Part shown: piece after piece, positions 15,359 through 30,394 of the stretch
Position numbering within the stretch: position 1 is the first letter of the stretch
Layout: every line of letters begins with the position of its first letter
Origin: Saprospiraceae bacterium
GTDB lineage: Bacteria > Bacteroidota > Bacteroidia > Chitinophagales > Saprospiraceae
NCBI GenBank assembly: GCA_028285085.1
Contig: JANQQI010000079.1
Coordinates: forward strand, 1-64,000
Reading direction: 5' to 3'
Length of the DNA stretch: 64,000 nt
Program-made: the position numbers and the translations under genes
Notes under the pieces: generated by a model
What the model was told of the DNA's origin: nothing
Database searches by the model: none
The model's input: the letters and a program-made list of their open reading frames with translations, nothing else

Positions 15359-16165
15359 TTAAGTCTTCGCTTTACGTAGATAAATATGATCCTTGACGGA
15401 CTTGACGAAAAGATTCGTACCACCTCCATTGATGGTGCCTACTACTTGATTCGAACTACAATTACAGCATCCGCTTTTATGTTTATGCTCATTTTCTTCG
15501 CTTTTTGCTTCCTCCATATTGATTTCAAAATCAGTATAGACTTCCCCGGAAATGGTTTCAAGTTCTAGATTGGCCTTGGTATTCGCTGGTAAAGTGAGGT
15601 CAATAAAGCCTTTGGTGGAAATAACGGAAGATGGGCCATCTTGAGAAAATGAAGCAAATACAATATTGATATTGCCTCGGGTACTTTTCGCTACGATAGG
15701 ACCTTTTACATTTTTTAAATTTAAGCTAGCACCGTAGCCATCAATTTCGATCTCGCCTGCGCAATTTTGAATGACGACCTCGCGTGGCCTGGATTGGTTT
15801 TCCTGGAGATACAAATTTGCATTCTGTGGAATCTTAACGGTACACTTTAAATGAGTCCGCTGGGTTTGGGTGATAATGATTCTATTATTTTCACCGCGTT
15901 TCACTTCCAGTCCCATTCCGGTATTATCGGAAGCGCCTTGGCGTAAGGGACGCAACCCTTTGGCACGTTCGGGAAGTGGTTTCATGCCTGTGGCCATGAC
16001 TTTCACTTCATTCCCGGTATAACCTTCGAGGGTAAGATCGGCATCTTGCAAATAAATTTCGACTCTTTGGTTACCGCGACTTTGAAAAGCGAGTTTGTAT
16101 TCATTCTGAGCCATTATACCGGAAGTCAGTAGAAGGCCAATGATTAAAGTGACTATATTTTGCAT
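15359..16165 (-). CDS. Exported DUF4097-like protein, related to the downstream gene
   Basis: A 268-aa protein with a clear signal peptide (MQNIVTLIIGLLLTSGIMAQ). It shows the same repeated beta-strand pattern as 14556-15281: RVEIYLQDADLTLEGY, GEIEIDGYGASLNLKN, STRGNINIVFA, STKGFIDLTLP, TISGEVYTDFEI, and an ending SVKDHIYLRKAKT. A His/Cys-rich stretch (ENEHKHKSGCCNCS) near residue 225 could bind metal; that is speculation. It is followed by 14556 with a 77-bp gap and preceded by the anti-sigma gene, all on the minus strand, so the four genes look like one envelope-response unit. Confidence 0.78.
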   Translation of the reverse strand: MQNIVTLIIGLLLTSGIMAQNEYKLAFQSRGNQRVEIYLQDADLTLEGYTGNEVKVMATGMKPLPERAKGLRPLRQGASDNTGMGLEVKRGENNRIIITQTQRTHLKCTVKIPQNANLYLQENQSRPREVVIQNCAGEIEIDGYGASLNLKNVKGPIVAKSTRGNINIVFASFSQDGPSSVISTKGFIDLTLPANTKANLELETISGEVYTDFEINMEEAKSEENEHKHKSGCCNCSSNQVVGTINGGGTNLFVKSVKDHIYLRKAKT

Positions 16166-16233
16166 AATATTTTTTTGAAAAAATGAAGTTTTAAAAGTAG
16201 GATAAGATCATATATGTCTTGTGTATAGTAGTC

Positions 16234-16983
16234 TCAAAGTAAAACCTCCAAGCCTTTTTCCGCCCGTGATTGGACTTCATCGATTAGATCATCCTGTTCC
16301 AGTAATTTCAATAGTTCATCGACTGCTCGTGTCTCCTTCCAGGCAATGAGAATATCGATAATTTTAATCTTCATCTCAGGATCATCTTGGGTGGATAAGC
16401 CACGTAAAAAAGCTTTGCGGACATCGGGATGATCACCAAAACGATAAAGCGCTTCGGCGGTATGAATGCGAACGTTGAGATTAGGGTCGTACTGTAAGAT
16501 ATCAAGCAGAGCGGCGATCACTTTTTGATCAGTCGGCTGAAAATCGTGGCTATAACCTACCGCCTTGATGCGTGCGCTGGCGGACTCTTGCTCAAGCATC
16601 TGCAACATCATCAGGCGTTGATTCTCCATGATGGTTTCCTGCGTGCTAGCTAAGTCTGAAATAGAAGTGCCATTGGACCGCTGGCCGAGCCAAAAACCCA
16701 GGAGCAGAATAGCTACCCCCGCGGCGGCCTGCCATAGCCAGCCAGGGAGTCGCCGCTGGATCGTTGGCCGTTGCTCTTGTTCGAGCAGTTGATAAAAGCG
16801 GGCACTCATCTCTGCACTAGGCTCAGGGGCTGGCAGCTGATCGATCAAGCCGTACATCTCACGGAGGCCGTCCAACTCTTGCCGCAAGGCCGGCGATTGC
16901 GCCAGTTGTGCCTCAACCTGTGCCCGTTCCGTTGCCGATAAGGTCTCTTCGAGATAATTGATTAATTGTTCTTCAGTGCTCAT
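16234..16983 (-). CDS. Membrane-anchored anti-sigma-like protein with HEAT repeats
   Basis: A 249-aa protein. Residues 1-75 are helical and resemble anti-sigma N-terminal domains (LINYLEETLSATERAQVEAQLAQSP), without the Cys/His zinc motif. A transmembrane segment spans about 83-100 (LWQAAAGVAILLLGFWLG). The outer part, about 150-249, consists of HEAT-like repeats (VIAALLDILQYDPNLNVRIHTAEALYRFG, DPEMKIKIIDILIAW). Its start overlaps the end of the ECF sigma gene by 11 bp. Known ECF systems pair a sigma factor with a membrane anti-sigma factor encoded next to it, so I infer that the cytoplasmic part holds the sigma factor and the periplasmic HEAT part senses a protein signal. Confidence 0.8.
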   Translation of the reverse strand: MSTEEQLINYLEETLSATERAQVEAQLAQSPALRQELDGLREMYGLIDQLPAPEPSAEMSARFYQLLEQEQRPTIQRRLPGWLWQAAAGVAILLLGFWLGQRSNGTSISDLASTQETIMENQRLMMLQMLEQESASARIKAVGYSHDFQPTDQKVIAALLDILQYDPNLNVRIHTAEALYRFGDHPDVRKAFLRGLSTQDDPEMKIKIIDILIAWKETRAVDELLKLLEQDDLIDEVQSRAEKGLEVLL

Positions 16984-17515
16984 ATGCTTTGAGATATATG
17001 GTGCGCAGTTGGCGCATCGCGCGGTACACTTTGACCTTCACGGCACCTTCGCTGCAGTTAAGTAATTGGGCGACCTCACTATATTTCATACCCTGAAAAC
17101 GGGTGAGCAGGAGGATCTCGCGTTGTTCTTCTTTTAGATGCTGTAATGCTTGCTCGAGGAGCCGTAGCTTTTCTTTTTTCTCCAGTTGCGCTCCCGGACC
17201 GTCATCGACAAGACGGGTATCAAATTTCGGCTCAAAGGGTTCCGTGGCTTGGCGAATGCGCTTTTTTTGGTACTCCGCGCGGACATTCCGAGCTATTTGA
17301 AACACCCAGGCTTGAAAACTGTAGGCTTCATTGTAAGTTGAGCGATAGCGCAACACGCGTTCAAATACATTTTGCGTCAAATCTTCACTAACGGCCTGAT
17401 CGTAGGTCAGGCGGAAGAAAAATCCGTACAAACGACGGTGGTAACGTTCGAACAGGGCAGACATTTGCTGCAAGTAGCCCGTTTTCACTTGTACCATCAG
17501 TTGTTCGTCCGTCAT
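16973..17515 (-). CDS. ECF-type RNA polymerase sigma factor
   Basis: A 180-aa sigma-70 family protein with only regions 2 and 4, as in ECF factors. Region 2 is at about residues 18-80 (LFERYHRRLYGFFFRLTYD, EDLTQNVFERVLRY, FQAWVFQIARNV) and region 4 at about 125-175 (LKEEQREILLLTRFQGMKYSEVAQLL, SEGAVKVKVYRAMRQL). It is first in a minus-strand row with the HEAT-repeat anti-sigma-like gene (11-bp overlap) and two DUF4097 genes, which are its likely targets. The divergent gene at 17640 is 124 bp away; no -35/-10 pair could be assigned in the gap. Confidence 0.92.
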   Translation of the reverse strand: MTDEQLMVQVKTGYLQQMSALFERYHRRLYGFFFRLTYDQAVSEDLTQNVFERVLRYRSTYNEAYSFQAWVFQIARNVRAEYQKKRIRQATEPFEPKFDTRLVDDGPGAQLEKKEKLRLLEQALQHLKEEQREILLLTRFQGMKYSEVAQLLNCSEGAVKVKVYRAMRQLRTIYLKAYEH

Positions 17516-17639
17516 GTTTTATTAGCTTTGAAGCTTCTTGTATTTTATTCAGGATATTGCCGGAATAGAGAAAGGTTACACGATAAGTGATTTTTTCTTT
17601 AAAATTTTAATAAAAACTCAAAACGGAATCTAACGAATC

Positions 17640-18074
17640 ATGGAGCTAAAACCAAATAGTGGATTAGGGGAGATCAAATTCGGTATGCAGCAATCGGAGA
17701 CAGAACAGATTCTTGGTCCGGCCACTCGCATTCGGGTGGATGAGGATGATGAAAGCCGGCTGATGCTGGATTTTAATCAACACAAAATCCGACTGATCTT
17801 CTTTCGAGACGAAAGTAATCGACTCGGCTATATCGAGACGGCGCTTCCTGATTTGTCCTACCGGGGGAAGGCTATTATCGGTCGTCCGGTCGAAGAAGTA
17901 CTTGAGCTATTGAGCGATTTAGAACCTGATTGGGAGATTGAAAATTACCGCTCTTTTGACTCCTATTTCAACGAACTCCATTGGTTGACGCTGTTTGTTG
18001 AATACGGCTGTGTGATCAATGTTTCGATGGGCGTTCCGTTTATGAATGATGAGGAGTATAATTGGCCTTTATGA
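17640..18074 (+). CDS. Unknown small acidic protein
   Basis: A 144-aa cytoplasmic protein, not assigned to a family with confidence. Its N-terminal GEIKFGMQQSETEQILGPAT resembles the GxIxFGMSxxEVxxxLGxP start seen in several small immunity-like or uncharacterised proteins, but this is only a pattern match. It is acidic and rich in beta-prone segments. Its base composition is like the surrounding host genes and unlike the AT-rich nuclease gene that starts 70 bp downstream on the same strand, so the two need not belong together. It is divergent from the sigma-factor gene. Confidence 0.65.
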   Translation: MELKPNSGLGEIKFGMQQSETEQILGPATRIRVDEDDESRLMLDFNQHKIRLIFFRDESNRLGYIETALPDLSYRGKAIIGRPVEEVLELLSDLEPDWEIENYRSFDSYFNELHWLTLFVEYGCVINVSMGVPFMNDEEYNWPL

Positions 18075-18144
18075 TGGTCCTCCAACAATACTGTTTACAT
18101 ATTTGATATTTTTTGTATATTAGTTGTTGGTTAAAAAAGGTAAC

Positions 18145-19986
18145 ATGAAATTAGCAGAGATTCTGAACTACGTCAACTCTTTCGAGAAAAATTCATTCTT
18201 ACGAGTTATTGATAACATTATTAGTGATAAGCCAAGAAACTTTAAAAGGGTAGATAAAATTCTTCGACAACTTGATGGACAATTGAAGAATGCGGATAAT
18301 AATAGTGTCACGGCAGTTTTGGAATTAATAGAAGATGAATATGTAACTCAAATTAATGAAGAGTTCACAAATACAACCTCTCAACTGGATATTTTAATTG
18401 ATATTATTATAAGAGATGGAAACTCTTTGATGAAACGTGAATGGTTGTTAAAGCTATACGAGAAAGAAATAAGAGGAATCAAGGCAAAGCTGAAGCAATT
18501 TAGAAACTTACTAGATTCAGAAGTAGAAGATCCAAGGATTAAACTTTATCAAATTTACGAAGCATGCTTAAATACAGCATATAGTAATGATGTGAAAAAT
18601 AACCAGGATTGCAAAATTACTAAGGATGAGCAATCAATTTTAGTAACACTTGCCAATAGACTAGAGATGTCGCATGAGGAAGTCAAGTTGATAAATTATT
18701 CGGTAGTTCCACTTAAAAAAAATGATGTTGATGAAATAATAAAGTATTTGTCAAAAATTGGAGTAATACTTTATTCAAGAAAAAATCATCAAGTCTATGT
18801 GCCTGACGAAGTAGTCCGAATCTTAAGAAGAGTTAGGGATAAGGAAGTTTCAGATAAAGTGTTCAGGAAAATTTTAAGACAATTGAAAGATAGCCAAATA
18901 AACTTATTATGCAGAAAACATAATATTGATAGAAAGTTAGATAGGAATAGTAAGGTGAAAGAAATAATTAAAGAAGGAATTAATTTCACCACAGCTATGC
19001 TAAATGGTATCCATAAAGAAGGGACTAAAAAAAATGAGAAGAGAACATTTTTAAACGATCTAATAGAAAAAAAACTAAAAATAGAGACACATATAAAAGG
19101 AGTTTCACTAGAAGATAAGTTAACAAACTTAAAGAACTATTTAAATGAAAAGGATAGGGATACTTCAATTAGTATTTCGATTCATGGCTATGATAAATTG
19201 ATGTCTGATTTGAAATCTTCAATGCCTCGTGTTGAAAAAATGTTGCAAGAAGAGTTTGAGTTAGAAGATACTGTTGAGTTAAACGCTTCAACGTTAATGA
19301 ATTATAATATTAAGCCAATTGATGTTTTATACCTGTTGGATCAAGATAGGATTAAACAATTTTGTGAAAAACATGAAATTTCTATTAGAGGTAATGAGGT
19401 GAATAATATTTTAAGTGCATATAAGGATGTTCAAAATTTGCTACTTGAAAATTATACCTTAATAGCGTCAAGGGATATAAATGCATTGAAGGAGAATGGT
19501 GTGGCGGTAAAGGATAGTGATTTAGGATTACAGTTTGAAGAACTTACTAAACTTATTTTTGAGAAGCTTGGATTTGATGTTGATGAGGATTTGAAGCGCC
19601 AGGTAGGGGATTCGAAAAATAAATCTGATATAGTAATAAGATTGTCAGATGACGAAATAGTTATTATAGAATGTAAATCAATAAAGGAAAGAGGATATAA
19701 TAAATATAGTACTGTCTCACGTCAAGTAAAGGCATATAAGAAGTTGGCAGAGAATAAAAATTATCGAGTATTGAAAACGTTTATTGTAGCTCCTGGGTTT
19801 ACAGATGATTTTATAAGGGAATGTGGACTAGACTATGATCTTAACTTATCCTTGATTACGGCAGAAGCATTGTATAATATTTATAATGAATTCATGAGGT
19901 CGGATTTACAAGGATTTCCACTTACTCTTTTAATGAGGGATGTATTAATTAATGAAGATAGAATTATAAAATCTATTACTAAATAA
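18145..19986 (+). CDS. AT-rich PD-(D/E)XK (Mrr-like) nuclease with SAP-like repeats; candidate defence gene
   Basis: A 613-aa protein. I chose the ATG at 18145, which has AAAAAGG four bases upstream; the TTG at 18124 is less likely. The C-terminal ~150 residues carry an Mrr/PD-(D/E)XK nuclease pattern: E465/E466 (QFEELTKLIFEKLGF), D495 (KSDIVI), E509-C-K511 (IIECKS) and Q527 (SRQVKAYKK). The N-terminal ~450 residues are helical. Two stretches resemble SAP-type DNA-binding motifs: INLLCRKHNIDRKLDRN with an EIIKEG tail, and IKQFCEKHEISIRGNE with an NILSAY tail. No methyltransferase, ATPase or partner adjoins it. Its sequence is much richer in A/T and in AGA/ATA codons than its neighbours, suggesting horizontal gain. 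A 7-bp inverted repeat (CCAACAA 18082-18088, TTGTTGG 18124-18130) lies upstream. Likely a DNA-cleaving protein; target unknown. Confidence 0.8.
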   Translation: MKLAEILNYVNSFEKNSFLRVIDNIISDKPRNFKRVDKILRQLDGQLKNADNNSVTAVLELIEDEYVTQINEEFTNTTSQLDILIDIIIRDGNSLMKREWLLKLYEKEIRGIKAKLKQFRNLLDSEVEDPRIKLYQIYEACLNTAYSNDVKNNQDCKITKDEQSILVTLANRLEMSHEEVKLINYSVVPLKKNDVDEIIKYLSKIGVILYSRKNHQVYVPDEVVRILRRVRDKEVSDKVFRKILRQLKDSQINLLCRKHNIDRKLDRNSKVKEIIKEGINFTTAMLNGIHKEGTKKNEKRTFLNDLIEKKLKIETHIKGVSLEDKLTNLKNYLNEKDRDTSISISIHGYDKLMSDLKSSMPRVEKMLQEEFELEDTVELNASTLMNYNIKPIDVLYLLDQDRIKQFCEKHEISIRGNEVNNILSAYKDVQNLLLENYTLIASRDINALKENGVAVKDSDLGLQFEELTKLIFEKLGFDVDEDLKRQVGDSKNKSDIVIRLSDDEIVIIECKSIKERGYNKYSTVSRQVKAYKKLAENKNYRVLKTFIVAPGFTDDFIRECGLDYDLNLSLITAEALYNIYNEFMRSDLQGFPLTLLMRDVLINEDRIIKSITK

Positions 19987-20025
19987 ATCTAGATTTAAGA
20001 TACTCTCCTTATTCTTCTGATTAAA

Positions 20026-21312
20026 TCAAAGGGTTTTTGAATATGTCGTTAGCTTATATGTCCGCCTACCATTCTGCAACAAAATAAAGATCACCAACAC
20101 CAAAGCCAGTAATCCTCCAAACAAGCAGAGCGATAAATAAAAATCCAGCCAAGCCAGGTTGGTATTTCCAAAATTCTTGTAAAGCATAATGACGATGCTG
20201 CCGAGGTAGCCAAATGCATCGGCGATGTACATAATGAAGCCGACATTGCCATTGATTTTATAGGCGGCAATGAATCGGTCAAAGATGATCCCGTTGAAAA
20301 GGATGTAGGGTAAGAATAAGCCAATCCCGGAAAAAATCATCCAAAGAACAGGGGAGAGTGATCCCCAGGTAAACAATCCGGTGGTGCAAAGCAAAAGAAG
20401 TATACCCGCCAGACAAATAATAATATTGGCGCGCAGGGCTTTTTGATTGTTTTTGATGCGGTACAAAAAGCCCAGGCCGATTAGAACGATAAAAGTGACT
20501 GGCAACTCGGTCGTTGAGAAAATCTCAGGACTTTCGCCGTAGCCAAGACCCGTCCAGATTTCTACGGCGAAGTTGTCCCGTATATCCCGGATGATGGTTA
20601 GGACCAAATAGAGCAATACAAATAAGGTGACGGGCAGGCCATATTGTTTTAAAAAAAGACGCTTAGCGCGATTATCCATAGCCGGCCGTACGGATTTCGA
20701 CTGCGTCTCTTCGGGAGAAGGCGGTGGAATTTGACTGAGCATCCATAGCGACAAAAACAGTAAGGGCATCACCAACAATCCCACCAGCATGGGCATCACT
20801 TGCTCGCTGTAACCCAACTCCAACAACCATCGGCCGATGGTTTTCGCTACCCCGGAGGTAATGATGAAATTGGCGGCGATGAAGACCGTGATCATCTCTG
20901 TGAGCTTACGTCCTTCGCAATACGTAAACAAAATACCCCAGATCATGCCTAGTGGTAGCCCATTGATGAACAACCAAAAAGGCCCCCAGGAGGGTGGGCT
21001 AAAGGCAAACCCGACCAAGGCCAGCCAAGCGATGCCAATGAAACCCAAGAAGAGCGGAATCCTGCGCTTTAAATTGAGCTCCGAGATGATTTTGATCCCG
21101 ATAAACTTACTTAAAGCATAGCCCAAAACCTGCGCAATGACGAGCACGATTTTATAGTCAATTCCCCAAAGGGTCCAATCCGCATAAGTGCCGGCGGTGT
21201 ACGGTTTTCGAAAAAGGTACATACAAAAGTAAGCACAGAAAGCCGCAATGCCTGCCCACAAGCCAAACGCCAAATCGCTACGCTGCAGTCGTCGCTGAAA
21301 TGGGGTCAACAT
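20026..21312 (-). CDS. DUF5690-family MFS-like membrane transporter, last gene of the phosphonate locus
   Basis: A 428-aa protein with about 12 hydrophobic segments, close to MFS size. The N-terminal segment FCAYFCMYLFRKPYTAGTY resembles the first membrane helix of organophosphate:phosphate antiporters of the GlpT/UhpT type; that is a pattern-based inference. The family is, as I recall, DUF5690. It begins 3 bp after the phosphonatase-like HAD gene stop, so it belongs to the same transcript as the HAD, FAD, HD and phosphatase genes. A role in moving a phosphonate or organophosphate across the inner membrane fits this place. The opposite-strand nuclease gene ends 39 bp away. Confidence 0.82.
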   Translation of the reverse strand: MLTPFQRRLQRSDLAFGLWAGIAAFCAYFCMYLFRKPYTAGTYADWTLWGIDYKIVLVIAQVLGYALSKFIGIKIISELNLKRRIPLFLGFIGIAWLALVGFAFSPPSWGPFWLFINGLPLGMIWGILFTYCEGRKLTEMITVFIAANFIITSGVAKTIGRWLLELGYSEQVMPMLVGLLVMPLLFLSLWMLSQIPPPSPEETQSKSVRPAMDNRAKRLFLKQYGLPVTLFVLLYLVLTIIRDIRDNFAVEIWTGLGYGESPEIFSTTELPVTFIVLIGLGFLYRIKNNQKALRANIIICLAGILLLLCTTGLFTWGSLSPVLWMIFSGIGLFLPYILFNGIIFDRFIAAYKINGNVGFIMYIADAFGYLGSIVIMLYKNFGNTNLAWLDFYLSLCLFGGLLALVLVIFILLQNGRRTYKLTTYSKTL

Positions 21313-21315
21313 CAG

Positions 21316-22002
21316 CTAGTTGGCTTTAGCACCTTGCACAATGGGGAGCAATTCCAGCATGTCATCAATGATGAAATCGGGTGCCGCTTCGGCGATTTGC
21401 GCTCGACTTTGTGCACCTGTGGTCACACCTACCGTATAGCGCACATCACCATTTTGCCCTTCTTCAATATCAATGGCGCTATCGCCTACTTTGACCATCT
21501 CCGTCGTTGGAATACCTGAGATTTGACTGATATGCAAAATCATATCTGCCGCCGGGCGACTGTTTTCAACATCCGATGCGGTGGCTAAAAAGTCGATATC
21601 TCTTCCGACAGCGAAGCCTACTTTGTTCAGGATGTTTTCGGCCACCGATCGGGCGTAGCCCGTATTAAAAGCGACCAGCACCCCCTCATTCCGCAATGCC
21701 GTGATGACCTGTTGGACACTCGGAAATACAGACATTGGAAACTGAGCATAAGCTTCATCCAGGTTTTGTCGAAAGGCCGCGTGGAGTGTATCTACCAGAC
21801 TGTCTTCTGGAGTTTCGCCGGCCATTTCTGTGAGAATATCACGGATGGCGCCCCACTTCTCTTTTCCAGCCCCAAGTAAAAGGACTGTGTCTAGGGTGAC
21901 CGAATAGCCGTGATCACTCAACGTGGAATGGATGGTTTTGTACACTAAATTATCTTCATAAATGGCAGTGCCGGCCATGTCAAAAATGACAATCTTGATC
22001 AT
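21316..22002 (-). CDS. Phosphonatase-like HAD hydrolase (TIGR03351-like)
   Basis: A 228-aa HAD-superfamily protein. Motif I is FDMAGT: D8 is the nucleophile and the usual second Asp is Ala10, the DxAGT variant typical of phosphonoacetaldehyde hydrolase (PhnX) and its close relatives. A cap lysine, K47 or K49 in GAGKEKWGAI, is placed where PhnX carries its Schiff-base lysine. Motif II is FNTGY (T114), the motif III region has R149 in SRPAADM instead of the usual Lys, and motif IV is GDSAIDIE (D174, D178). It should cleave a C-P bond of a phosphono-aldehyde or act on a related phosphate. Its ATG overlaps the FAD-gene stop by 4 bp. It is shorter than true PhnX (about 265 aa), so I place it in the phosphonatase-like group. 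Confidence 0.87.
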   Translation of the reverse strand: MIKIVIFDMAGTAIYEDNLVYKTIHSTLSDHGYSVTLDTVLLLGAGKEKWGAIRDILTEMAGETPEDSLVDTLHAAFRQNLDEAYAQFPMSVFPSVQQVITALRNEGVLVAFNTGYARSVAENILNKVGFAVGRDIDFLATASDVENSRPAADMILHISQISGIPTTEMVKVGDSAIDIEEGQNGDVRYTVGVTTGAQSRAQIAEAAPDFIIDDMLELLPIVQGAKAN

Positions 22003-23168
22003 AGAATAGGAGAGTTTAAAGCTAGAACTTGTTGAATATGTTGCTTGGCATAACCGAGTGATGCGGTCATGCCTTTACCACCGATTCCCGTAACAATGTG
22101 AATGTGCTGATCGATGGTTTGATTGAAAATATCATCCGACGCACTCTGGCAATAATAGCCTTGCCAGCTTTCCCGGATCAAAGCACGGTCGAGTTGAAAG
22201 ATTTTTTGGGCCTCGCTCAAAATGAATTGATTGATCGCGTGATCTGTGTCGAAGGCTAAGGCTTCCGGCTGTTGTATGGGGGTATACTCGTGGGAGTCTC
22301 CCAGGATGATGGAACCATCGTCTGCTTGTTTAAATAAGATGTGAATACCTTTTTGACGGTGGTAGGCCGTTTCATCCTCTCTTGTTTTGATGGATCGAAA
22401 AGAAGGGCATTCCTGGAAACTCTCGTAGCGCCGAATGGTCCAACCTGTGAGTATCGAAGACTTGATTTTAAGATCCGCGGGCGGGTGGATCGCCAGCATT
22501 TGTAATTTGACCAGTTGTAGATCACTCGCTTGAAATAGCTCCGGAAATAACAGCTGGAATTCGTTGCCGGAGCAAAGGAAAAGCTTTTGAGCTTTATACT
22601 GCTGCTTGTGGTTGGTTACTAATTCTACCTCGCCGTTAGTGACGCTGACTTCATTGGCGAGCGTGTGCGGATAATAGTCCAAATCGTAGCGATCGATGCA
22701 GTATTGGATCAAGCGTTGGCCAACTTGCCGGGGATCAACAGTGACTTCTTCCGGGAAATATAAACCACCCAAAACGTAGGACGGCTGCAAGCCGGGGAAT
22801 TGCTCCAGGCATTGACTACGCGTCAGCAGTTCTGAGTTGTAATGATTATCCTGATTGATGCGCCACAGCTCTTGTAATAGCACTAATTCTTCGGCATTGC
22901 TGGCCAAGTAAATACTTCCGCCCGGTCGTACGCTGATATCCATTTGCTTTTGTATGGATTTGTAAATGTCCAGGCTTTCGCGACCGTAGCTTTGCCACTT
23001 GGTGGCAAAACCAGAGGGGACGACTTGCCCAAAATTGCGTGCCGTAGCCGCGCGCGGATAGTCTGTTTTCTCAAACAAAGCCACTTTTAAGCCGGCTTGT
23101 AAGCAATGGTAAGCGTGGGCAATCCCCAGGATGCCTGCTCCCACCACGATGATGTCGTATGTTTTCAT
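21999..23168 (-). CDS. TIGR03364-like FAD-dependent oxidoreductase, probable aminophosphonate oxidase
   Basis: A 389-aa DAO/glycine-oxidase-fold flavoprotein. The N-terminus has the dinucleotide-binding motif VVGAGILGIAHAYH and the acidic end of the second strand (LFEKTD), followed by ARNFGQVVPSG, a segment characteristic of the TIGR03364 group. The C-terminus has VTGIGGKGMTAS, the FAD-contact GxGGxG region. TIGR03364 proteins are known to sit next to phosphonatase-like hydrolases and are thought to oxidise aminophosphonates to aldehydes. Here the gene overlaps the HAD gene by 4 bp, so the oxidase product is probably the HAD substrate. It follows the HD-domain gene by 56 bp. No signal peptide: cytoplasmic. 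Confidence 0.87.
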   Translation of the reverse strand: MKTYDIIVVGAGILGIAHAYHCLQAGLKVALFEKTDYPRAATARNFGQVVPSGFATKWQSYGRESLDIYKSIQKQMDISVRPGGSIYLASNAEELVLLQELWRINQDNHYNSELLTRSQCLEQFPGLQPSYVLGGLYFPEEVTVDPRQVGQRLIQYCIDRYDLDYYPHTLANEVSVTNGEVELVTNHKQQYKAQKLFLCSGNEFQLLFPELFQASDLQLVKLQMLAIHPPADLKIKSSILTGWTIRRYESFQECPSFRSIKTREDETAYHRQKGIHILFKQADDGSIILGDSHEYTPIQQPEALAFDTDHAINQFILSEAQKIFQLDRALIRESWQGYYCQSASDDIFNQTIDQHIHIVTGIGGKGMTASLGYAKQHIQQVLALNSPIL

Positions 23169-23224
23169 TTTAAGGTAGTATGGTGTGTGTTATTCTAAAC
23201 ATGAAATGTGTCTAGCAACTGATT

Positions 23225-23812
23225 TTATACAGAGTCTTTGAGTTTGTGTTGTTCTTTGAAATGCTTGTTGACGAGGAAAAACAGTCGTTCCCAGTGAGCG
23301 GGCTGAACGGTGAAATGAGTACCTTTAGCTGCTTCGTCAAGCTTACGAATGGCAATGATGTCTGTAAAAAATGGATGCTGTTTGAACGCCTCAGCCTCAG
23401 CTACAGACATAATGCCACCCTGGAAGACCATAGTCTGTCGACTTGCTTCGGAGAGTTGAGAAAAATAATCGGGATCGGCCTGACACAAATAGCGCTTGGC
23501 AGCAACGTGATTTTTGACCGTCGCCACGATGCGTTTCGAAAATCCTCTTTCTTCCAAAAATTGAGCACCCCAGTCCTCGTGGTTTTGAATACCGTAGGCT
23601 GCCATTTTATCGTGATGCCCATCTAATGCTAATGGATACAAATGACCGATGTCGTGGAGGTAAGCCGCCAATTCTAATTCTTCATCAAGTTCAGCAGCAC
23701 GAGCCAGGCAGCCTGCCTGGAAAGAATGGGATTGCACGGTACAACCTTCTCCGTAGGTGAGGTGACCGTATTTTTGGAATAAAGCGAGTATTTCTTGTGC
23801 CAGAACGATCAT
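23225..23812 (-). CDS. PhnZ-like HD-domain di-iron oxygenase
   Basis: A 195-aa HD-domain protein of the size of PhnZ. The histidines and aspartates needed for a di-iron site are present at H29, H53-D54 (YLHDIGH), H78, H102 and D159, with nearly the same spacing as the ligands I recall for PhnZ (34, 58, 59, 80, 104, 161). A Tyr/Glu pair before the first His (Y20, E22 in TYGEGC) resembles the PhnZ substrate-loop Tyr/Glu. PhnZ splits 1-hydroxy-2-aminoethylphosphonate oxidatively into glycine and phosphate. Its start overlaps the phosphatase gene stop by 4 bp. No PhnY-type 2-oxoglutarate dioxygenase is in the window, so the substrate here may differ. Confidence 0.87.
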   Translation of the reverse strand: MIVLAQEILALFQKYGHLTYGEGCTVQSHSFQAGCLARAAELDEELELAAYLHDIGHLYPLALDGHHDKMAAYGIQNHEDWGAQFLEERGFSKRIVATVKNHVAAKRYLCQADPDYFSQLSEASRQTMVFQGGIMSVAEAEAFKQHPFFTDIIAIRKLDEAAKGTHFTVQPAHWERLFFLVNKHFKEQHKLKDSV

Positions 23813-24912
23813 AATTTAAGCATACTTTTTATTACTTGACCGGCTTCATAGCGGTCGCCTTGATAGTCGTAGCCAAGTAATTTGACCACCGTCTTGGCAA
23901 TCTGATTTTGGTAAAGTTGCTGCTCGGTTTTTACTTCGCCGAGCGCTGGAACATTAGGACCGATTGCGGCCGCCCAGATTTGGTCCGATCCTTCGTAGAC
24001 CGTGCCGTGGCTTTTCCACTCTTTCATTGGAGAAGTTCCCCGACCGTGGTCAGTCGTAATGACCATCGTTGTTTTATCTTTATAAAATGGATCGCTTTGC
24101 AGCGTTTCCCAAATTTCTTTAATCCATTGATCGGTTTTGTGAGCCGAGATCAAATAATGATCATAGCGACCATCGTGCGCAAAATCATCAGTCTCCCCGT
24201 AAGAGATATAAACCACTCGGGGATGGTGCTTTTTCAAATACTCTAGCATGTAGTTGTGGGTAAAAGCATCGAGACGCACATTGAACCAAGGGCCAGATAC
24301 TTGATCTTGCATCTCATTAATAATTTGCTCTTTGTAAGTCAAATACTCATCTTCCGCTTTGCGGAAACCAGCATTAACGGGGATACCGCTGCGCTCGTCG
24401 TTGATGATGTAAGGGAACACATCCCAGGAACCGAAAGCGGCTACTTTGCCTGCAAAAGCTGGCATCTCATTCAGATATTCGAGTAAGGTTTTATTTGGAT
24501 TGTATTTTTTGGCATTGCTATCGATTTCGGGATCGCTGTAGCCGGTCAGGATTTCGTTGTAGCCAGGGTAAGAAAACCAGAAACGGTTAGCGCAATTCAT
24601 TTTGTTGCCTTCCCAGCGATTGCCGTAAAGCTGACCTTCGGTCGCCAGCGTCTCCCAAAACCACGGCATTAGAATTTTGCGTGCGGCTTCCGGGGTTGGG
24701 GCACTGAATTTAGCCATCAGCGCTTCGGGGGATTTGACAAGCGCTTCGTTTTGCATCATGCTGTCGACCGCACCACCGAATACTTCTTGCCAACGTAGGC
24801 CATCCAAAGTAATGAGAACCAGGTGCTCGGCGACTTGCTCTTTTTTATCATTTTGTGCCCATGCGAAAAGCGGTAGGAGGCAAATGGATAAGTATAGTAA
24901 TAGAGGTTTCAT
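23809..24912 (-). CDS. Secreted alkaline-phosphatase-superfamily hydrolase
   Basis: A 367-aa protein with a signal peptide (MKPLLLYLSICLLPLFAWAQ), so periplasmic or beyond. It has the alkaline phosphatase/NPP metal-site pattern: D37 in LITLDGLRWQEV, a Ser (S114) in WFSYPGYNEILTG at the place of the NPP Thr nucleophile, D and H in GETDDFAHDGRYDHY, the Asp-His pair in TTDHGRG, and a final His in KSHGT. It should hydrolyse a phospho-ester, phosphodiester or phosphonate outside the cytoplasm; phosphonoacetate hydrolase belongs to this superfamily too. It is followed directly by the HD gene (4-bp overlap) and preceded by susD across a hairpin, which ties it to uptake and breakdown of one organophosphorus substrate. 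Confidence 0.85.
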   Translation of the reverse strand: MKPLLLYLSICLLPLFAWAQNDKKEQVAEHLVLITLDGLRWQEVFGGAVDSMMQNEALVKSPEALMAKFSAPTPEAARKILMPWFWETLATEGQLYGNRWEGNKMNCANRFWFSYPGYNEILTGYSDPEIDSNAKKYNPNKTLLEYLNEMPAFAGKVAAFGSWDVFPYIINDERSGIPVNAGFRKAEDEYLTYKEQIINEMQDQVSGPWFNVRLDAFTHNYMLEYLKKHHPRVVYISYGETDDFAHDGRYDHYLISAHKTDQWIKEIWETLQSDPFYKDKTTMVITTDHGRGTSPMKEWKSHGTVYEGSDQIWAAAIGPNVPALGEVKTEQQLYQNQIAKTVVKLLGYDYQGDRYEAGQVIKSMLKL

Positions 24913-24946
24913 TTTTAAAAATTGGTGTTAGAGCGATTTTATGAAA

Positions 24947-24984
24947 ACTTGCCCCTGTTGGCAATTGATGCAACAGGGGCAAGT
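24947..24984 (-). terminator. Intercistronic hairpin between susD and the enzyme genes
   Basis: A perfect 14-bp inverted repeat (ACTTGCCCCTGTTG at 24947-24960, CAACAGGGGCAAGT at 24971-24984) with a 10-nt loop. On the minus strand it follows the susD stop by 12 bp and is trailed by a short T run. It probably acts as a partial terminator or RNA-stabilising structure, allowing more susCD than enzyme transcript. Confidence 0.75.
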
Positions 24985-24996
24985 CAAAACAATGAT

Positions 24997-26436
24997 TTAC
25001 TTAACTAACCACATTTTGGTCGTATTCTCATCCGGGCCTTGTTGGGCCACCGCAGCATTATAACTGTCTGTATTGAGTACTTGCTCACTACCGGGATATT
25101 GAATCCGCATCGGCAGTTGATCCAAAACGGCATTAGGGCCAGGTGTCAGTTCAGGTAATTCGGTACGACGGTAGTCAAACCAAGCTTCGTTACCTACCAT
25201 GAAGAGTGACAACCATTTTTGGGTAGCAATGCGCTCCAACTCATCAGTAGTCAATGCAACATTATCTTGAGCCAGATAATCGCTGACGTCGAAAAGGCCC
25301 AAATCATTCATGTTGGCCGTGATACCGGCTTCATAGTAATCGGCGGCCTCACCACTGACGTACCCCTTCTGCGCCGCCTCCGCGAGAATGAACATCAATT
25401 CTGCGTAGTGCATCACGGTCATTTCAACCGTCGCAGGATCTTCGCGGAAACGTGTACCCAGCCGAGATTGATTGTTAGCACCACCGTTGAAGTTAGACGC
25501 GGCATCTTCCGACAAGCCGTTAGGTACGCCAACAAACTCATTACTGTCAGGGTTGTCTACCGGACGGAACAAAATAGGCATCCGTGGATCGTTCAAGTCT
25601 TTGAGGATGCCTTCGATGCGTTGGCTCATGCGCTTCTCATCAAATGAACCTACCCGGGCCGTATTTAAAGGCCAGCGATTGGTGCTCTCCAGATAAGATA
25701 CTGCGGCATTGTCAGCAGTGCTGGTGAAATGAACACCAGAATCCATGATCTCCTGAATGAGGGCTGGCCCGTCGATTCCTAAATCATCCCAGCGCTTTTC
25801 CAAGCGCATTAGGTAGCGAATGCGTAAGGAGTTTGCCAATTTTTCCCACTGCGCCGCATCACCATTGTATAAAATATCACCAGTCAAACTACCACCCATC
25901 GCCAATTGCTCGGCCGCATCTTCGAGGTCTTGCAAAATGCTGCGGTAGATATCTTGCTGTTGATCGTAGCGGGGCAAAAATTCGTCTTCTTTGCCTTTTA
26001 AAGCGCCGGAGTAAGGGACATCACCGTACATTTCCGTTAAGTTGGCCAAGATCCAGGCGCGAAGCGTCAAGGCGGCTCCTTGATAAGCATTATTATTGCT
26101 GGATTCGCCGAGTGCCAAAAGATTATTGGCATCTCTCAGGTTGCGATAAAACAGATTCCAGGTGCCTTCATAAGTGCCCAAAAGGTAGCGATCTACGCCG
26201 GTAAAGTTGTTGGTGGCTACCAACTGGGCGAGGATGTTACCCGTTCCCCAGGCTAAGTCAGACGTGATTTCATCCCCTGTTTCAAAGAGAATCTTAGGGA
26301 GGAGCAAAGCCGGGTTGGCTTCGTCTACTGTAGGGAAGTTAGGATTATCGTTGATGTCTTCGAAGTCGTCGGTGCAGCCTACCGCCAAGAGCAGTAAGGC
26401 AAACAACAGAAGCGATTTATATTTTAAAAATTGCAT
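24997..26436 (-). CDS. SusD/RagB-like outer-membrane substrate-binding lipoprotein
   Basis: A 479-aa protein when started at the ATG at 26434-26436, which gives a lipoprotein signal (MQFLKYKSLLLFALLLLAVGC, lipobox Cys 21) followed by the acidic TDDFEDINDNPN typical of surface-exported Bacteroidota lipoproteins. The frame up to 26484 is an extension I reject. The body has the helical pattern of the SusD-like 2 family (LLLPKILFETGDEITSDLAWG, ALTLRAWILANLTEMYGDVPYS, LRIRYLMRLEKRW, GNEAWFDYRRTELPELTPG). SusD-like proteins form the lid over a SusC barrel. It follows susC by 34 bp. The enzymes downstream point to an organophosphorus substrate rather than a glycan. Confidence 0.93.
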   Translation of the reverse strand: MQFLKYKSLLLFALLLLAVGCTDDFEDINDNPNFPTVDEANPALLLPKILFETGDEITSDLAWGTGNILAQLVATNNFTGVDRYLLGTYEGTWNLFYRNLRDANNLLALGESSNNNAYQGAALTLRAWILANLTEMYGDVPYSGALKGKEDEFLPRYDQQQDIYRSILQDLEDAAEQLAMGGSLTGDILYNGDAAQWEKLANSLRIRYLMRLEKRWDDLGIDGPALIQEIMDSGVHFTSTADNAAVSYLESTNRWPLNTARVGSFDEKRMSQRIEGILKDLNDPRMPILFRPVDNPDSNEFVGVPNGLSEDAASNFNGGANNQSRLGTRFREDPATVEMTVMHYAELMFILAEAAQKGYVSGEAADYYEAGITANMNDLGLFDVSDYLAQDNVALTTDELERIATQKWLSLFMVGNEAWFDYRRTELPELTPGPNAVLDQLPMRIQYPGSEQVLNTDSYNAAVAQQGPDENTTKMWLVK

Positions 26437-26470
26437 TGTTCTATTTTTATAAAGAGTTGGTTTGGAAAAA

Positions 26471-29400
26471 TTAGAATGTAACACCGAGGTGGAAACCTAC
26501 GCTACGAGTGCTAGGCGTCGCCATATCCTCTACACCCGGTACGATGGTATTGCCATCGAAAGAGAAGGTTTCAGGATCGAAGTGTGGATTTTCGGTAAAT
26601 AGCAGGAGATTACGACCAATGACACTAAGGGTCAAGCTTTGTGCACCAATTTTTGAAGCCAGATTTTTACCGAAAGTGTACCCTAGGCTTAGCTCACGGA
26701 GTTTGACAAAAGTGGCATCATAAATTCCAACTTCTTCGTTGCCACGATTAAAGTGCGACCAGTAGAAATCACGAGCGGATACCTCTACATTGTTGGTGAC
26801 ATAGTTGCCGTCACCATCCAGCATATAACCAGGGCGATCCAGTGTACTGACACCGGTGACTTTGGTTTGACCACCGATGTAGGTGTGGGTTTCACGGTCG
26901 TATTCTGCAGTTTCTTCCATTAGGCCGGAAGTCCCACCAATCAATAAGGTACGAGACATAATGACACCACCTTGGCGCCAGTCCAGCAAGAAACTTAGGC
27001 TGAAATTTTTCCAAGTCAGGCGATTGTTCATCCCTAGGTTGAAATCAGGGTTGTAGTTGCCTAGTTTACGTAGGTTGGGATCGCGAACGGGGAAACCATC
27101 GCTGTACAAGTGCCCCCAACCATCTTCAATATCATTGACATCGTCTACGACTACTGTTTCGTTAGTAGAAGGATTTACCAGCACGAATCCGGTGCCGTAT
27201 ACATCTCCCATGCGGCCGCCTTCGCGTGCTTGTACGCTGAGGTAGTTGTTCGAGATTTCGTAAGTCGTAAGATCGTCGGTCAGTTCGATTACCTTACTGC
27301 GGGCGCGGGTGAAATTAAAGCCAACTTCCCATTCAAAATTTTTGGTGCGAACGGGTACGACACTAACCAAAGCCTCGATACCAGTGCTTTCGATTTCGCC
27401 GGCGTTGATGAACTTAGAACCAAAGCCTGACGTCTGTGAAACGGGGATGCTGATGATCTGATCCGTCGCATTGTTACGGTAGTAGGTCAGATCAAAGCTC
27501 AGGCGATTGGTAAACAAGCGAATATCGGTACCGATCTCAAAAGTGGTTAAGCGCTCCGGTTTTAGATCCGGGTTTGGTAACACATTACCTTCAGTACCGA
27601 GCAATTGAGTGCCGTAAGGGTTAGACAAGAATTCGAAATAGGGCTGCAAAGAGTAAGGATCGGTATCGTTACCAACCTGACCGTATCCCAAGCGGAGTTT
27701 AGCGAATGAAATACTCTTCGGCAATTCGAAAATCTCACTAGCGATGAAAGATACCGAAGCGGAAGGATAGAAGTAACTATTGTTGCTTTCTGGAAGGGTA
27801 GAGGCCCAGTCGTTACGACCTGCCAGGTCGACATAAATCGCATTTTTAATCCCCAAAGAAGCCGTAGCGTAGAGAGAGTTAATGCGACGTTTGCTATTGA
27901 ACGAGTTTTGTAGCAGAGGAATATTGGAGTTGTTGAAGCTGTAAACACCCGGTACCGCCAGCTCATTTGCGGAAACTTGGTTGAAGCGGTTTTCCTGCGT
28001 CATACGGTTACCACCACCGGAGACGCTCAAGGTCAAATCCGGGCTCAGATTAGTATTGTAGCTAAGCAAGAAATCGGTGTTGATTTCCTGGAAGTAGACT
28101 TTGTCTTCGCGGTACTGACCAAGTGGAAAGCGCTGTGAACTCCAGGCACGACGACCTTCTCGGAGATCATTAAATACATCGGTACCCGAGCGAACCATCA
28201 GGCTCAGATTGTCCGTGATATTGTAAGTGATATTAATGTTTCCGAGAATACGGTCCTTATTGAAGCCGTTCGTGTTTTCGAACATGGTGAAATAAGGATT
28301 GTCATGCCAGTTGTAGTTGTAGTTAAACTGCTGCACACCTTCCAAGCCGGGTTGCCAGTAATCACGCAAAGACTCCATTGGGATCTGACGACCAAACCAA
28401 ACCCAGAGATACATAATGTTCTCTGTGCCGTAGGAGTTGTTCGGACGGTTTTTAGACCCGGAATTGATGTAATTAATGTTGGCGTTGATCCGCAGCTTGT
28501 TGTCAAGCATTTTGTGACCCAAGTCGAGATTGATACCATTTCGGCGTAGGTCAGTGTTTGGCAAAATGCCTTTAGAATACTGATTGGTATAAGACAAGCG
28601 GAAATTGCTGGTCTCGTTGGCGCCGGTGATCGAGATATTATTATTGGTAGAAACACCCGTCTCGAAGAAATCTTCGATATTGCTTTCTTGCGGGGACCAA
28701 GGCAGTTTTTCGTAAGAATCCTGATCGGAATAGTCAGATGGACGTACGGCCCAGTCACCGGCACGAACACCTTTGTCGTTGACGCTTTGATGCTGGACCA
28801 TCATGCGACCGTCGAGAGCTGGTCCCCAGCTTTCATCGATATTATCGTTGGTGCCGGAGCCGAAGCCATCCACAAACTCAAAGTTGAAACCAGCTCCCTG
28901 GCCGTATTTATTTTGGTATTCCGGGATGCGGAGCGGTCTTTCGAATGTGGTTGATGAGCTGATACTCACACCGATTCCTTTGGTGCCTTTACCGGATTTC
29001 GTCGTAATTAAGACGACCCCGTTGGCGGCGCGCGAGCCGTAGAGCGCTGTCGCATTGGCGCCGCGCAGGATAGTGACAGACTCAATATCATCCGGACTGA
29101 TCTCAGCGGCACCATTCCCGTAATCTGCCTCCAGGTTCCCTTGGGAGCGGCCGTTGCTACCGACAGCATTGCTGATCGGTACCCCGTTGACCACGAATAA
29201 AGGCTGGTTGTCACCCGATAGAGAAGACTCTCCGCGGATAACAATCCGGGAAGAAGATCCTACCCCAGAACCGCCCTGAGTGATATTTACCCCGGCTACT
29301 TTTCCGGTCAGGTTATCCAGTAAATTCGGTGTTTTTACCACCGAGATATCTTTGCCGTCTACTTCTTGGGCGGCGTAGCCAAGAGCCTTAGTGGCTCGCT

Positions 29401-29770
29401 CAATACCCAGAGCGGTGACGGTCACTTCGGTAAGTGCGACCCCTTCTTTTAGATTTGCATTAATGCTTGATCGGTCGCCTACCGTTTCTTCGGTAGTCAT
29501 GTAGCCTATGTATGAGAATACAAGAATATCTTCTGCATTCAATTCTTCTAGTCGGAAGACGCCATTGACGTCTGAACTGGTTCCCTTTGTAGTGTTTTTA
29601 ACTTGGATGTTTACCCCGATGAGTGGCTCGGAGGTAGTAGCGTCGGTGATAGTTCCGGTTACCGTCTTTTGACCCTGTGCGGACAAGAAGAAAAGTAACC
29701 CGCAAGCGGTAAGTACAACATAGCGTACCCCTTGCTTGGTTTTGTAGAGCAAATGGTTTAACTTCTGCAT
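26471..29770 (-). CDS. SusC/RagA-like TonB-linked outer-membrane receptor
   Basis: A 1099-aa protein. The signal peptide ends near FLSAQGQ; a carboxypeptidase-regulatory-like domain follows (VTGTITDATTSEPLIGVNIQV, about residues 35-115), then the plug (LLDNLTGKVAGVNITQGG, RGESSLSG, FVVNGVPIS, VTILRGANATALYGSRAANGVVLITTK, about 130-270), and a long beta-barrel to the C-terminus (TPSTRSVGFHLGVTF). With SusD it forms a pedal-bin importer driven by TonB. It is the first gene of the minus-strand phosphonate locus. A 252-bp region upstream separates it from the divergent cupin gene. Confidence 0.95.
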   Translation of the reverse strand: MQKLNHLLYKTKQGVRYVVLTACGLLFFLSAQGQKTVTGTITDATTSEPLIGVNIQVKNTTKGTSSDVNGVFRLEELNAEDILVFSYIGYMTTEETVGDRSSINANLKEGVALTEVTVTALGIERATKALGYAAQEVDGKDISVVKTPNLLDNLTGKVAGVNITQGGSGVGSSSRIVIRGESSLSGDNQPLFVVNGVPISNAVGSNGRSQGNLEADYGNGAAEISPDDIESVTILRGANATALYGSRAANGVVLITTKSGKGTKGIGVSISSSTTFERPLRIPEYQNKYGQGAGFNFEFVDGFGSGTNDNIDESWGPALDGRMMVQHQSVNDKGVRAGDWAVRPSDYSDQDSYEKLPWSPQESNIEDFFETGVSTNNNISITGANETSNFRLSYTNQYSKGILPNTDLRRNGINLDLGHKMLDNKLRINANINYINSGSKNRPNNSYGTENIMYLWVWFGRQIPMESLRDYWQPGLEGVQQFNYNYNWHDNPYFTMFENTNGFNKDRILGNINITYNITDNLSLMVRSGTDVFNDLREGRRAWSSQRFPLGQYREDKVYFQEINTDFLLSYNTNLSPDLTLSVSGGGNRMTQENRFNQVSANELAVPGVYSFNNSNIPLLQNSFNSKRRINSLYATASLGIKNAIYVDLAGRNDWASTLPESNNSYFYPSASVSFIASEIFELPKSISFAKLRLGYGQVGNDTDPYSLQPYFEFLSNPYGTQLLGTEGNVLPNPDLKPERLTTFEIGTDIRLFTNRLSFDLTYYRNNATDQIISIPVSQTSGFGSKFINAGEIESTGIEALVSVVPVRTKNFEWEVGFNFTRARSKVIELTDDLTTYEISNNYLSVQAREGGRMGDVYGTGFVLVNPSTNETVVVDDVNDIEDGWGHLYSDGFPVRDPNLRKLGNYNPDFNLGMNNRLTWKNFSLSFLLDWRQGGVIMSRTLLIGGTSGLMEETAEYDRETHTYIGGQTKVTGVSTLDRPGYMLDGDGNYVTNNVEVSARDFYWSHFNRGNEEVGIYDATFVKLRELSLGYTFGKNLASKIGAQSLTLSVIGRNLLLFTENPHFDPETFSFDGNTIVPGVEDMATPSTRSVGFHLGVTF

Positions 29771-30022: not shown

Positions 30023-30394
30023 ATGAAAGTCCAGAGCATTAATCTCGAAGAAAAATTTTCCAAGTTTTCGACACATTGGACACCCAAAATTATTGGTGAG
30101 TTAAATGGACAATATCTGAAACTGGCGAAGGTGAAAAATGACTTTGTATGGCATAGCCACGCGCACGAAGATGAACTCTTTTTCGTTGTAAAAGGGACAC
30201 TGATTATGGAGTATCGTGATCAACCTACAACGCGAACGGGACCAGGTGAAATTTTGATTATCCCTAAAGGTGTGGAGCATTTACCTCGGACCGAAGATGA
30301 AGAAGTATGGCTGATGCTTTGCGAACCTAAAACGACAAAGCATACCGGAGCGGTCGAGCATGAGAAAACAGTAAAGAATTTAGAATGGATCTGA
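30023..30394 (+). CDS. Cupin-domain protein
   Basis: A 123-aa single-domain cupin. Metal-site motif 1 appears as WHSHAHEDELFFVVKG (two His and a Glu) and motif 2 as PGEILIIPKGVEHLPR with the last His. There is no signal peptide. Small cupins of this kind are usually of unknown enzymatic role or act as metal-dependent isomerases/oxygenases. Its 3' end overlaps the next gene by 10 bp. It is divergent from susC, so it may share control with the phosphonate locus, but nothing in the sequence proves that. Confidence 0.85.
   Translation: MKVQSINLEEKFSKFSTHWTPKIIGELNGQYLKLAKVKNDFVWHSHAHEDELFFVVKGTLIMEYRDQPTTRTGPGEILIIPKGVEHLPRTEDEEVWLMLCEPKTTKHTGAVEHEKTVKNLEWI

Follow-up and report, generated by a model that had tools for sequence, protein, structure and literature searches.

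What does a SusC/SusD pair import when it stands at the head of a set of genes for aminophosphonate breakdown? This question was raised by a stretch of 64,000 nucleotides (hereafter the window) from contig JANQQI010000079.1 of a Saprospiraceae bacterium (phylum Bacteroidota). At positions 20026-29770, on the minus strand, seven open reading frames (ORFs) followed each other in the order SusC, SusD, an alkaline-phosphatase-superfamily (AP) enzyme, an HD oxygenase, a FAD oxidase, a HAD hydrolase and the membrane protein DUF5690. We consider that they probably form an organophosphorus acquisition operon for aminophosphonates.

From the observed gene content, gene order, conserved residues and recurrent linkage we inferred the following route, including the form of the substrate, the cargo of SusC/SusD, the AP reaction, the role and direction of DUF5690 and the substrates of HAD and HD. 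The SusC/SusD pair would bind a phosphonate-containing ester or conjugate and import it across the outer membrane; in the periplasm, the AP enzyme would split the ester and so set the aminophosphonate free. DUF5690, probably a carrier of the major facilitator superfamily (MFS) akin to organophosphate:phosphate antiporters (OPA), would then bring the freed compound through the inner membrane, as its linkage, fold and conserved residues suggest. In the cytosol, the FAD oxidase would turn 2-aminoethylphosphonate (AEP) or N-methyl-AEP into phosphonoacetaldehyde, judging by the published biochemistry of other family members, and HAD, by its PhnX-type residues, would split this product into acetaldehyde and phosphate. 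The PhnZ-like HD enzyme might cleave alpha-hydroxylated aminophosphonates, for example (R)-1-hydroxy-2-aminoethylphosphonate ((R)-HAEP), into phosphate and an amino acid. The proposed compartments followed from the export signals. Namely, the lipobox of SusD and the signal peptide of AP would place both outside the inner membrane, whereas HD, FAD and HAD showed neither signal peptide nor lipobox by eye and would therefore lie in the cytosol.

Linkage of the locus genes across the phylum

We sampled 395 genomes of the phylum, found TIGR03364, the family of the FAD oxidase, in 33 of them and read about 20 kb around each. Neighbours were recognised with profiles built from the loci themselves at hand-set thresholds, and 39 stretches taken at round offsets from the same contigs served as controls. 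Among the 33 TIGR03364 loci (the window counted), DUF5690 and HAD were each present in 24, HD in 14, AP in 13 and a SusC/SusD pair in 17; DUF5690 was thus a more frequent companion than the pair. Some stretches were short (L060, L067) or off-centre at contig ends (L048, L058, L059), so that SusC/SusD may have been missed there, and two overlapped within one genome (L066, L092). The sequence-only reading of this DNA had proposed to test whether SusC/SusD accompanies the phosphonate enzymes more often than by chance. This was the case: the pair was found in 17/33 loci and in 4/39 controls (Fisher p = 1.9e-4; all Fisher tests here ignored shared ancestry). SusD was also present in 15 of the 24 TIGR03364 loci with HAD (p = 3.0e-5 against the SusC/SusD pairs of the same controls). 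Any SusC was seen in 18/33 loci, including L054, where it lay at the edge of the stretch with SusD out of view.

Two further associations were seen post hoc. SusD occurred in 13/14 loci with HD versus 4/19 without it (p 5.9e-5) and in 11/13 loci with AP versus 6/20 without it (p 0.004). Neither link was borne out among the best 80 named DUF5690 matches, where HD was found in 3/48 Bacteroidota loci, one of them with a SusC/SusD pair, too few to confirm the link between HD and SusC/SusD. If the substrate was esterified and partly alpha-hydroxylated, this would explain why AP and HD travelled with SusC/SusD in the phylum sample, and it is the boldest part of our proposal. In its full form the proposal holds that DUF5690 is a new and widespread family of aminophosphonate permeases and that a subset of SusC/SusD complexes, those of two SusD clades, has become adapted to aminophosphonates which are esterified and in part alpha-hydroxylated, for example the head groups of phosphonolipids or phosphonoglycans; we put it forward tentatively, as somewhat more doubtful than probable.

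The predicted cytosolic enzymes and the candidate carrier

The FAD oxidase scored 378.7 bits against TIGR03364 (cut-off 285.1) over positions 1-364 of 365, which bore out its earlier naming. According to the text of PMC10590968, PbfD enzymes convert N-methyl-AEP and AEP to phosphonoacetaldehyde, and PbfD1 of A. baumannii, which is annotated to TIGR03364, acts on both N-methyl-AEP (M1AEP) and AEP. By analogy, it was likely that the window enzyme oxidises (N-methyl-)AEP to phosphonoacetaldehyde.

The HAD hydrolase had TIGR03351 as its best NCBIfam family and stayed below the cut-offs of both TIGR03351 (187.2 bits vs 218.9) and the PhnX family TIGR01422 (91.5 vs 220). A profile of 26 HAD sequences, the window included, matched the phosphonoacetaldehyde hydrolase PhnX (2iof) at E 5e-35. 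D8 and K49 were invariant among the 26, and K49 fell on the Lys of the GLLK motif; we take D8 to be the nucleophile and K49 the equivalent of the Schiff-base Lys of PhnX. The enzyme thus likely cleaves phosphonoacetaldehyde to acetaldehyde and phosphate.

In a similar way, HD had TIGR03276 as its best NCBIfam family at 171.0 bits, below the cut-off of 214.6. It resembled PhnZ (4n71, E 4.4e-31, residues 8-191) and TmpB (6npa, E 1.9e-25) over nearly its full length, and its motifs HS, LHDIGH, NHED, NHVAAKRY and LDEAAK aligned to PhnZ, where their His and Asp residues presumably bind metal. The names that HAD and HD had received from the sequence were thus near misses. Best family and catalytic motifs agreed with them, but the curated cut-offs were not reached, so that the two proteins look like a phosphonatase and a PhnZ and cannot be counted as confirmed members of these families. 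In contrast to the PhnY*/PhnZ and TmpA/TmpB pathways, the locus encoded no 2-oxoglutarate hydroxylase. Three PhyH-family matches were present on other contigs of the host genome, and a PhnY*-like partner for HD may thus exist.

In the host genome (7.47 Mb, 99.4% complete), the two matches to PhnW were weak (25 and 22 bits) and below the cut-off, and neither PhnA nor PhnJ was found. The FAD and HAD enzymes were consequently the only hydrolytic route found. This was in line with the statement in the text of PMC10590968 that most PbfD2-type clusters do not contain phnW.

The last gene of the series belonged to DUF5690 (PF18943, 475 bits, cut-off 25), a family strongly linked to genes for carbon-phosphorus (C-P) bond cleavage. 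A C-P gene was present in the stretch at 34/47 DUF5690 matches of the phylum sample (the window and 33 of the 46 others) and at 59 of the best 80 named matches, whereas neither a C-P gene nor DUF5690 was found in any of the 39 controls. The latter 59 comprised 41/48 loci from Bacteroidota and 18/32 from other groups, mostly Alpha- and Gammaproteobacteria (one Ignavibacteriales record was counted among the others). The nearest C-P gene lay at a median distance of 8 bp from DUF5690 and within 100 bp in 41/59 of these loci. SusC and SusD were both present in 20/80, always with a C-P gene. Among the matches listed, the family was spread over Bacteroidota, Alpha- and Gammaproteobacteria and others, and in all three proteobacterial neighbourhoods checked (L163, L168, L186) TIGR03364 was over the cut-off.

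In Foldseek, the first four PDB matches of the AlphaFold model of DUF5690 (pLDDT 92.7) were all human G6PT (SLC37A4), and GlpT came 13th; the TM-scores lay at 0.6-0.7, a level that other MFS carriers reached as well. OPA membership on the ranking alone was rejected, since NorA, FLVCR1 and PiPT were also in the top 17. R35, K69 and R242 were conserved in 43/43 sequences, the window included. R45, K80 and R269 are important residues of GlpT. An hhalign comparison with a three-protein GlpT/UhpT/UhpC profile (P 4.9e-4, 103 columns) placed R35 and K69 on GlpT R45 and K80, and R242 on UhpC R266 (GlpT R269) only within a stretch scoring -1.3 bits. No significant full-length OPA match was found by hhalign, the best alignment being to UhpT (P 2.4e-4, 106 columns), and the DUF5690 profile had no match among PDB sequences at E 1. 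The protein had previously been called MFS-like; the family was confirmed, and more specifically it looked like a carrier of the organophosphate:phosphate-antiporter type. An import role is suggested by linkage, fold and conserved residues taken together.

The same residues leave room for another function, since the sensor UhpC has all three of them and an antiporter would send phosphate outward in exchange. DUF5690 could accordingly export phosphate or an amine, or act as a UhpC-like sensor, and in this way balance the products of C-P cleavage. We regarded this as unlikely because the family accompanied several C-P pathways (phosphonatase-like, PhnWYA, PhnZ-like and PbfA), as an importer would, and the window genes scanned included no further recognisable carrier of the inner membrane. 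An aminophosphonate importer of related type has been described. Namely, AepP is a proven AEP permease of the OPA family, 27.75% identical to GlpT with the phosphate-binding residues kept, and the text of PMC8316502 reports it from one Bacteroidetes, Kriegella aquimaris. Both AepP and DUF5690 were MFS proteins linked to AEP genes and, in the case of DUF5690 putatively, akin to GlpT; DUF5690 differed in forming a separate Pfam family with no PDB sequence match at that threshold. A literature search, from which subscription journals were mostly out of reach, found no publication that names DUF5690 or describes the seven-gene set, and both the role assigned to DUF5690 and the counts across genomes appear to be new. 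If DUF5690 is such a carrier, a family that so far has no assigned function would become a marker of aminophosphonate use in genomes and metagenomes.

The cargo of SusC/SusD and the exported phosphoesterase

SusC matched TIGR04056 with 627.5 bits (cut-off 368.25) and SusD matched PF12771 with 312.3 bits (cut-off 27), in agreement with their earlier names. A TIGR04056 SusC was thus followed by a SusD lipoprotein, as is required of a SusC/SusD pair. With a start at ATG 26436 rather than at GTG 26484, the start in the ORF listing, SusD has the lipoprotein signal LLAVGC. The pair adjoined a phosphoesterase and organophosphorus genes, as in PUS/PusCD systems.

In a tree of 55 SusD proteins, 37 of the 40 from C-P loci fell within two well-supported clades, where 17/18 and 20/27 rows came from loci with a C-P gene. 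The C-P-locus label required 5 changes on this tree, compared with a mean of 13.3 after shuffling. The tree took in only SusDs found by profile; 7/15 of its non-phosphonate rows were chosen for likeness to the window SusD, and the search for relatives of that protein was limited to 3 scored candidates in any one genome. The non-phosphonate relatives in the window's clade had a phosphoesterase directly after SusD or two genes on in 4/4 cases, the scan covering L093, L095, L096 and L097 of the seven fetched near relatives (L093 to L099). The gene after SusD was a PF03372 protein in L093 and L095 and PhoD in L096, and a calcineurin-like enzyme stood two genes on in L097. None of the phosphonate genes sought was found in the roughly 20 kb read at L093, L095 and L096 (family f36), and L094 was alike; it is likely that the SusC/SusD of L093, L095 and L096 is a phosphate-ester counterpart of the window pair. 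L097 was a second pair of the host itself (contig 56, 91288-92721), 27 kb beyond the window. Its SusD was 45% identical to that of the window, and downstream of the pair came a 472 aa protein that matched no Pfam family, the calcineurin-like phosphoesterase and an FMN oxidoreductase. In L098, the gene upstream of SusC encoded an APH-family phosphotransferase. The clustering in the tree and the phosphoesterases downstream of non-phosphonate relatives together favour an organophosphorus cargo for the window's SusD clade, though not phosphonate alone.

The AP enzyme had been described as a secreted member of its superfamily, and this was supported by a Sec-type signal peptide seen by eye (ending in AWA/Q) and by weak matches to general superfamily models only (best PF01676, 25.2 bits, cut-off 24.3). 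Residues D37, S114, D242, H246, D288, H289 and H302 were invariant in 24 sequences, the window included. The AlphaFold model (pLDDT 90.9) matched sulfatases, YejM, LtaS and NPP in Foldseek. Formylglycine sulfatases and phosphonate monoester hydrolases carry the motif C/S-x-P-x-R. AP was rejected as either, since S114 lay in S-Y-P-G-Y, where an invariant Tyr replaces the Arg. It was also rejected as a marker of phosphonate use alone because some copies stood by themselves.

These neighbourhoods can be read differently. The SusC-SusD-AP genes may constitute a general scavenger of organophosphate esters (a PUS) that stands beside a separate phosphonate operon and imports phosphodiesters, not phosphonates in particular. 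The phosphoesterases after SusD in the four relatives scanned outside phosphonate loci are what such a system would show, and L106 carried SusC-SusD-AP without FAD, HAD, HD or DUF5690. Moreover, other phosphoesterase types accompanied or replaced AP in relatives, including exported-looking PF01663 phosphodiesterases (L040, L046, L052), PhoD-like (L062) and calcineurin-like (L043) enzymes. On the other hand, SusD tracked the cytosolic HD enzyme, which a plain ester scavenger would not need, 17/18 rows of one SusD clade came from phosphonate loci, and the seven window genes formed one tight series. We judged this explanation doubtful but a serious contender.

Most SusC/SusD systems take glycans, and polysaccharides bearing AEP are known. 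The locus could thus serve the use of a glycan with aminophosphonate groups, the pair importing an oligosaccharide. Glycoside hydrolase or polysaccharide lyase families were found in 0/10 proteins of or beside the window locus and in 0/27 genes of relatives (27 different genes scanned out of many). The nearest links to glycans were a chitobiase-like accessory domain on the L052 phosphodiesterase and starch-synthase-type genes near L106. A classic glycan locus was rejected, since no carbohydrate-enzyme family occurred among the window genes scanned, and we considered the aminophosphonate-glycan version quite improbable.

Several observations weighed against the proposed aminophosphonate operon. 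No SusC/SusD pair was present in the stretch read at 16/33 TIGR03364 loci. Five genomes of the same family were sampled, and TIGR03364 was found in one (G162) and in none of the other four. In G162 the FAD gene (L061) lay apart from the DUF5690-HAD genes (L091), with SusC/SusD at neither. Consistent detachment in relatives had been named as the finding that would refute the link; the pair was missing from the stretch read at these 16 loci and present at the other 17. A 73% identical AP occurred in G158 without SusC/SusD, FAD, HAD, HD or DUF5690 within 20 kb. SusDs of the window's clade also stood beside other phosphoesterases where the phosphonate genes sought were absent, so that SusC/SusD may handle esters of phosphate as well as of phosphonate. 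At 13/46 DUF5690 loci in the phylum sample (L071, L072, L077, L079 and others) and at 21 of the best 80 named ones, the search for C-P genes found none; further organophosphorus compounds may thus be among the cargo of this family. Both HAD and HD, as noted, were below their family cut-offs. A phosphonolipid source is possible from one neighbouring gene, a phosphocholine-specific phospholipase C (L039:6577-9177; TIGR03396, 821 bits) that adjoined FAD-DUF5690-HAD and hints at lipid head groups as the source. The recurrence of SusC/SusD with FAD, HAD and HD stood, and the earlier claim that the pair is dedicated to phosphonate was not borne out, given the loci without the pair and the clade members beside other phosphoesterases.

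Layout, related loci and known systems

The seven-gene series and its spacing (Table 1) were confirmed in the sequence as first described. AP/HD and FAD/HAD overlapped by 4 bp each, and the gaps were 3 bp between HAD and DUF5690, 56 bp between HD and FAD, 84 bp between SusD and AP and, provided that SusD starts at ATG 26436, 34 bp between SusC and SusD. A cupin gene at 30023-30394 was rejected as a member because its homologue was found in none of the loci read.

Table 1. Genes of the window locus, their products or predicted functions, and the evidence used
Gene product	Position	Strand	Evidence
SusC-like TonB-dependent outer-membrane transporter, 1099 aa	26471..29770	-	TIGR04056; plug, barrel and CarbopepD_reg domains
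SusD-like surface lipoprotein	24997..26436	-	PF12771; lipobox LLAVGC
Predicted exported AP-superfamily phosphoesterase	23809..24912	-	Weak Pfam matches; invariant residues; AlphaFold/Foldseek
PhnZ-like HD oxygenase, likely cleaving alpha-hydroxy-aminophosphonate	23225..23812	-	TIGR03276 below cut-off; PhnZ/TmpB alignment
FAD oxidase of PbfD type, which likely converts (N-methyl-)AEP into phosphonoacetaldehyde	21999..23168	-	TIGR03364 over cut-off
HAD hydrolase resembling phosphonatase, which likely splits phosphonoacetaldehyde into acetaldehyde and phosphate	21316..22002	-	TIGR03351 below cut-off; PhnX residues
DUF5690, putative inner-membrane aminophosphonate carrier of organophosphate-antiporter type	20026..21312	-	PF18943; fold; R35/K69/R242

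Comparison of 56 clustered loci (55 fetched, two of them overlapping, plus the window) showed that parts of the locus are shuffled among relatives. The window gene order was accordingly rejected as a conserved unit: the exact order was present in no other locus listed for this set or for the named DUF5690 matches, L044 and L070 being the nearest. L070 had SusC (cut by the end of the stretch), SusD, AP and HD, then PhnA, PhnY and PhnW, all three scoring above their cut-offs, and DUF5690 last; it combines the same uptake genes with a different C-P pathway. Of culturable Bacteroidota, Fulvivirga kasyanovii (L188) carried SusC/SusD, AP, FAD, HAD, HD and DUF5690, Leeuwenhoekiella marinoflava (L192) SusC/SusD, AP, PbfA, FAD, HAD and DUF5690, and Zobellia amurskyensis (L209) SusC/SusD, FAD, HAD and DUF5690. 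PbfA, the (R)-HAEP ammonia-lyase, was over the cut-off in L038, L052, L063, L073, L166, L178 and L199. The PbfA profile was a single sequence (L073), and six checked proteins, three from the named loci matches and three from cluster C1, passed the NCBIfam cut-off. In L038 and L063, both from the window's phylum, PbfA over the cut-off stood beside genes that clustered with PhnA and PhnY of L070 (an assignment by clustering, not by family cut-offs), unlike the text of PMC12366243, which places the pbfA-phnY-phnA combination in Proteobacteria only.

Three loci without SusC/SusD (L047, L049, L053) had another TonB-dependent receptor beside DUF5690, identified by clustering with one member named. 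A helix-turn-helix-cupin regulator occurred in 20/56 clustered loci and not in the window; its name, like those of clusters C8 and C9, was taken from one member each. The C8 protein of about 930 aa was present in five loci; the one in L044 (14176-16959) combined beta-propeller repeats with a phosphoesterase part (PF04185) at its C-terminus.

PusCD complexes were among the closest known systems. Lidbury et al. (2020, PMC8115612) described in Flavobacterium low-phosphate-induced PusCD complexes that co-localise with phosphatases, phosphodiesterases and "phosphonate-degrading enzymes". This also counted against novelty: with PusCD beside phosphonate genes already in print, phosphonate is not a new cargo class of SusC/SusD, and the unusual cargo class suggested by the sequence-only reading had to be given up. 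Induction by phosphate depletion was demonstrated in that work. Its text gives no account of the combination SusC-SusD-AP-HD-FAD-HAD-DUF5690; Fig. 6 of the article may show similar loci. The same text reports that plant-associated Bacteroidetes do not have the common organic-phosphorus transporters.

The pbfD-phnX clusters of PMC10590968 were alike in that a FAD oxidase of the TIGR03364 type stands next to a HAD of the phosphonatase type and phnW is absent. The window added SusC/SusD, an exported phosphoesterase, a PhnZ-like HD and DUF5690. The main text of that article has no word beginning with "Bacteroid", although it mentions the FCB group. Thus, of the original interpretation, the recurrence of SusC/SusD, an AP-type phosphoesterase and DUF5690 with FAD, HAD and HD in many families held, a dedicated cargo was not borne out, and the cargo class was not new. 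Since the recurrent block comprises SusC/SusD, a phosphoesterase that is exported and a single family of candidate carriers, phosphonate uptake in the phylum becomes testable gene by gene.

Next to the locus, a plus-strand ORF of 620 aa (window positions 18124-19986) matched neither Pfam nor NCBIfam models at E 0.001. By eye, the C-terminal region appeared restriction-endonuclease-like, and the ORF lay in a low-GC stretch (16001-20000) of 38%, compared with 43-48% elsewhere.

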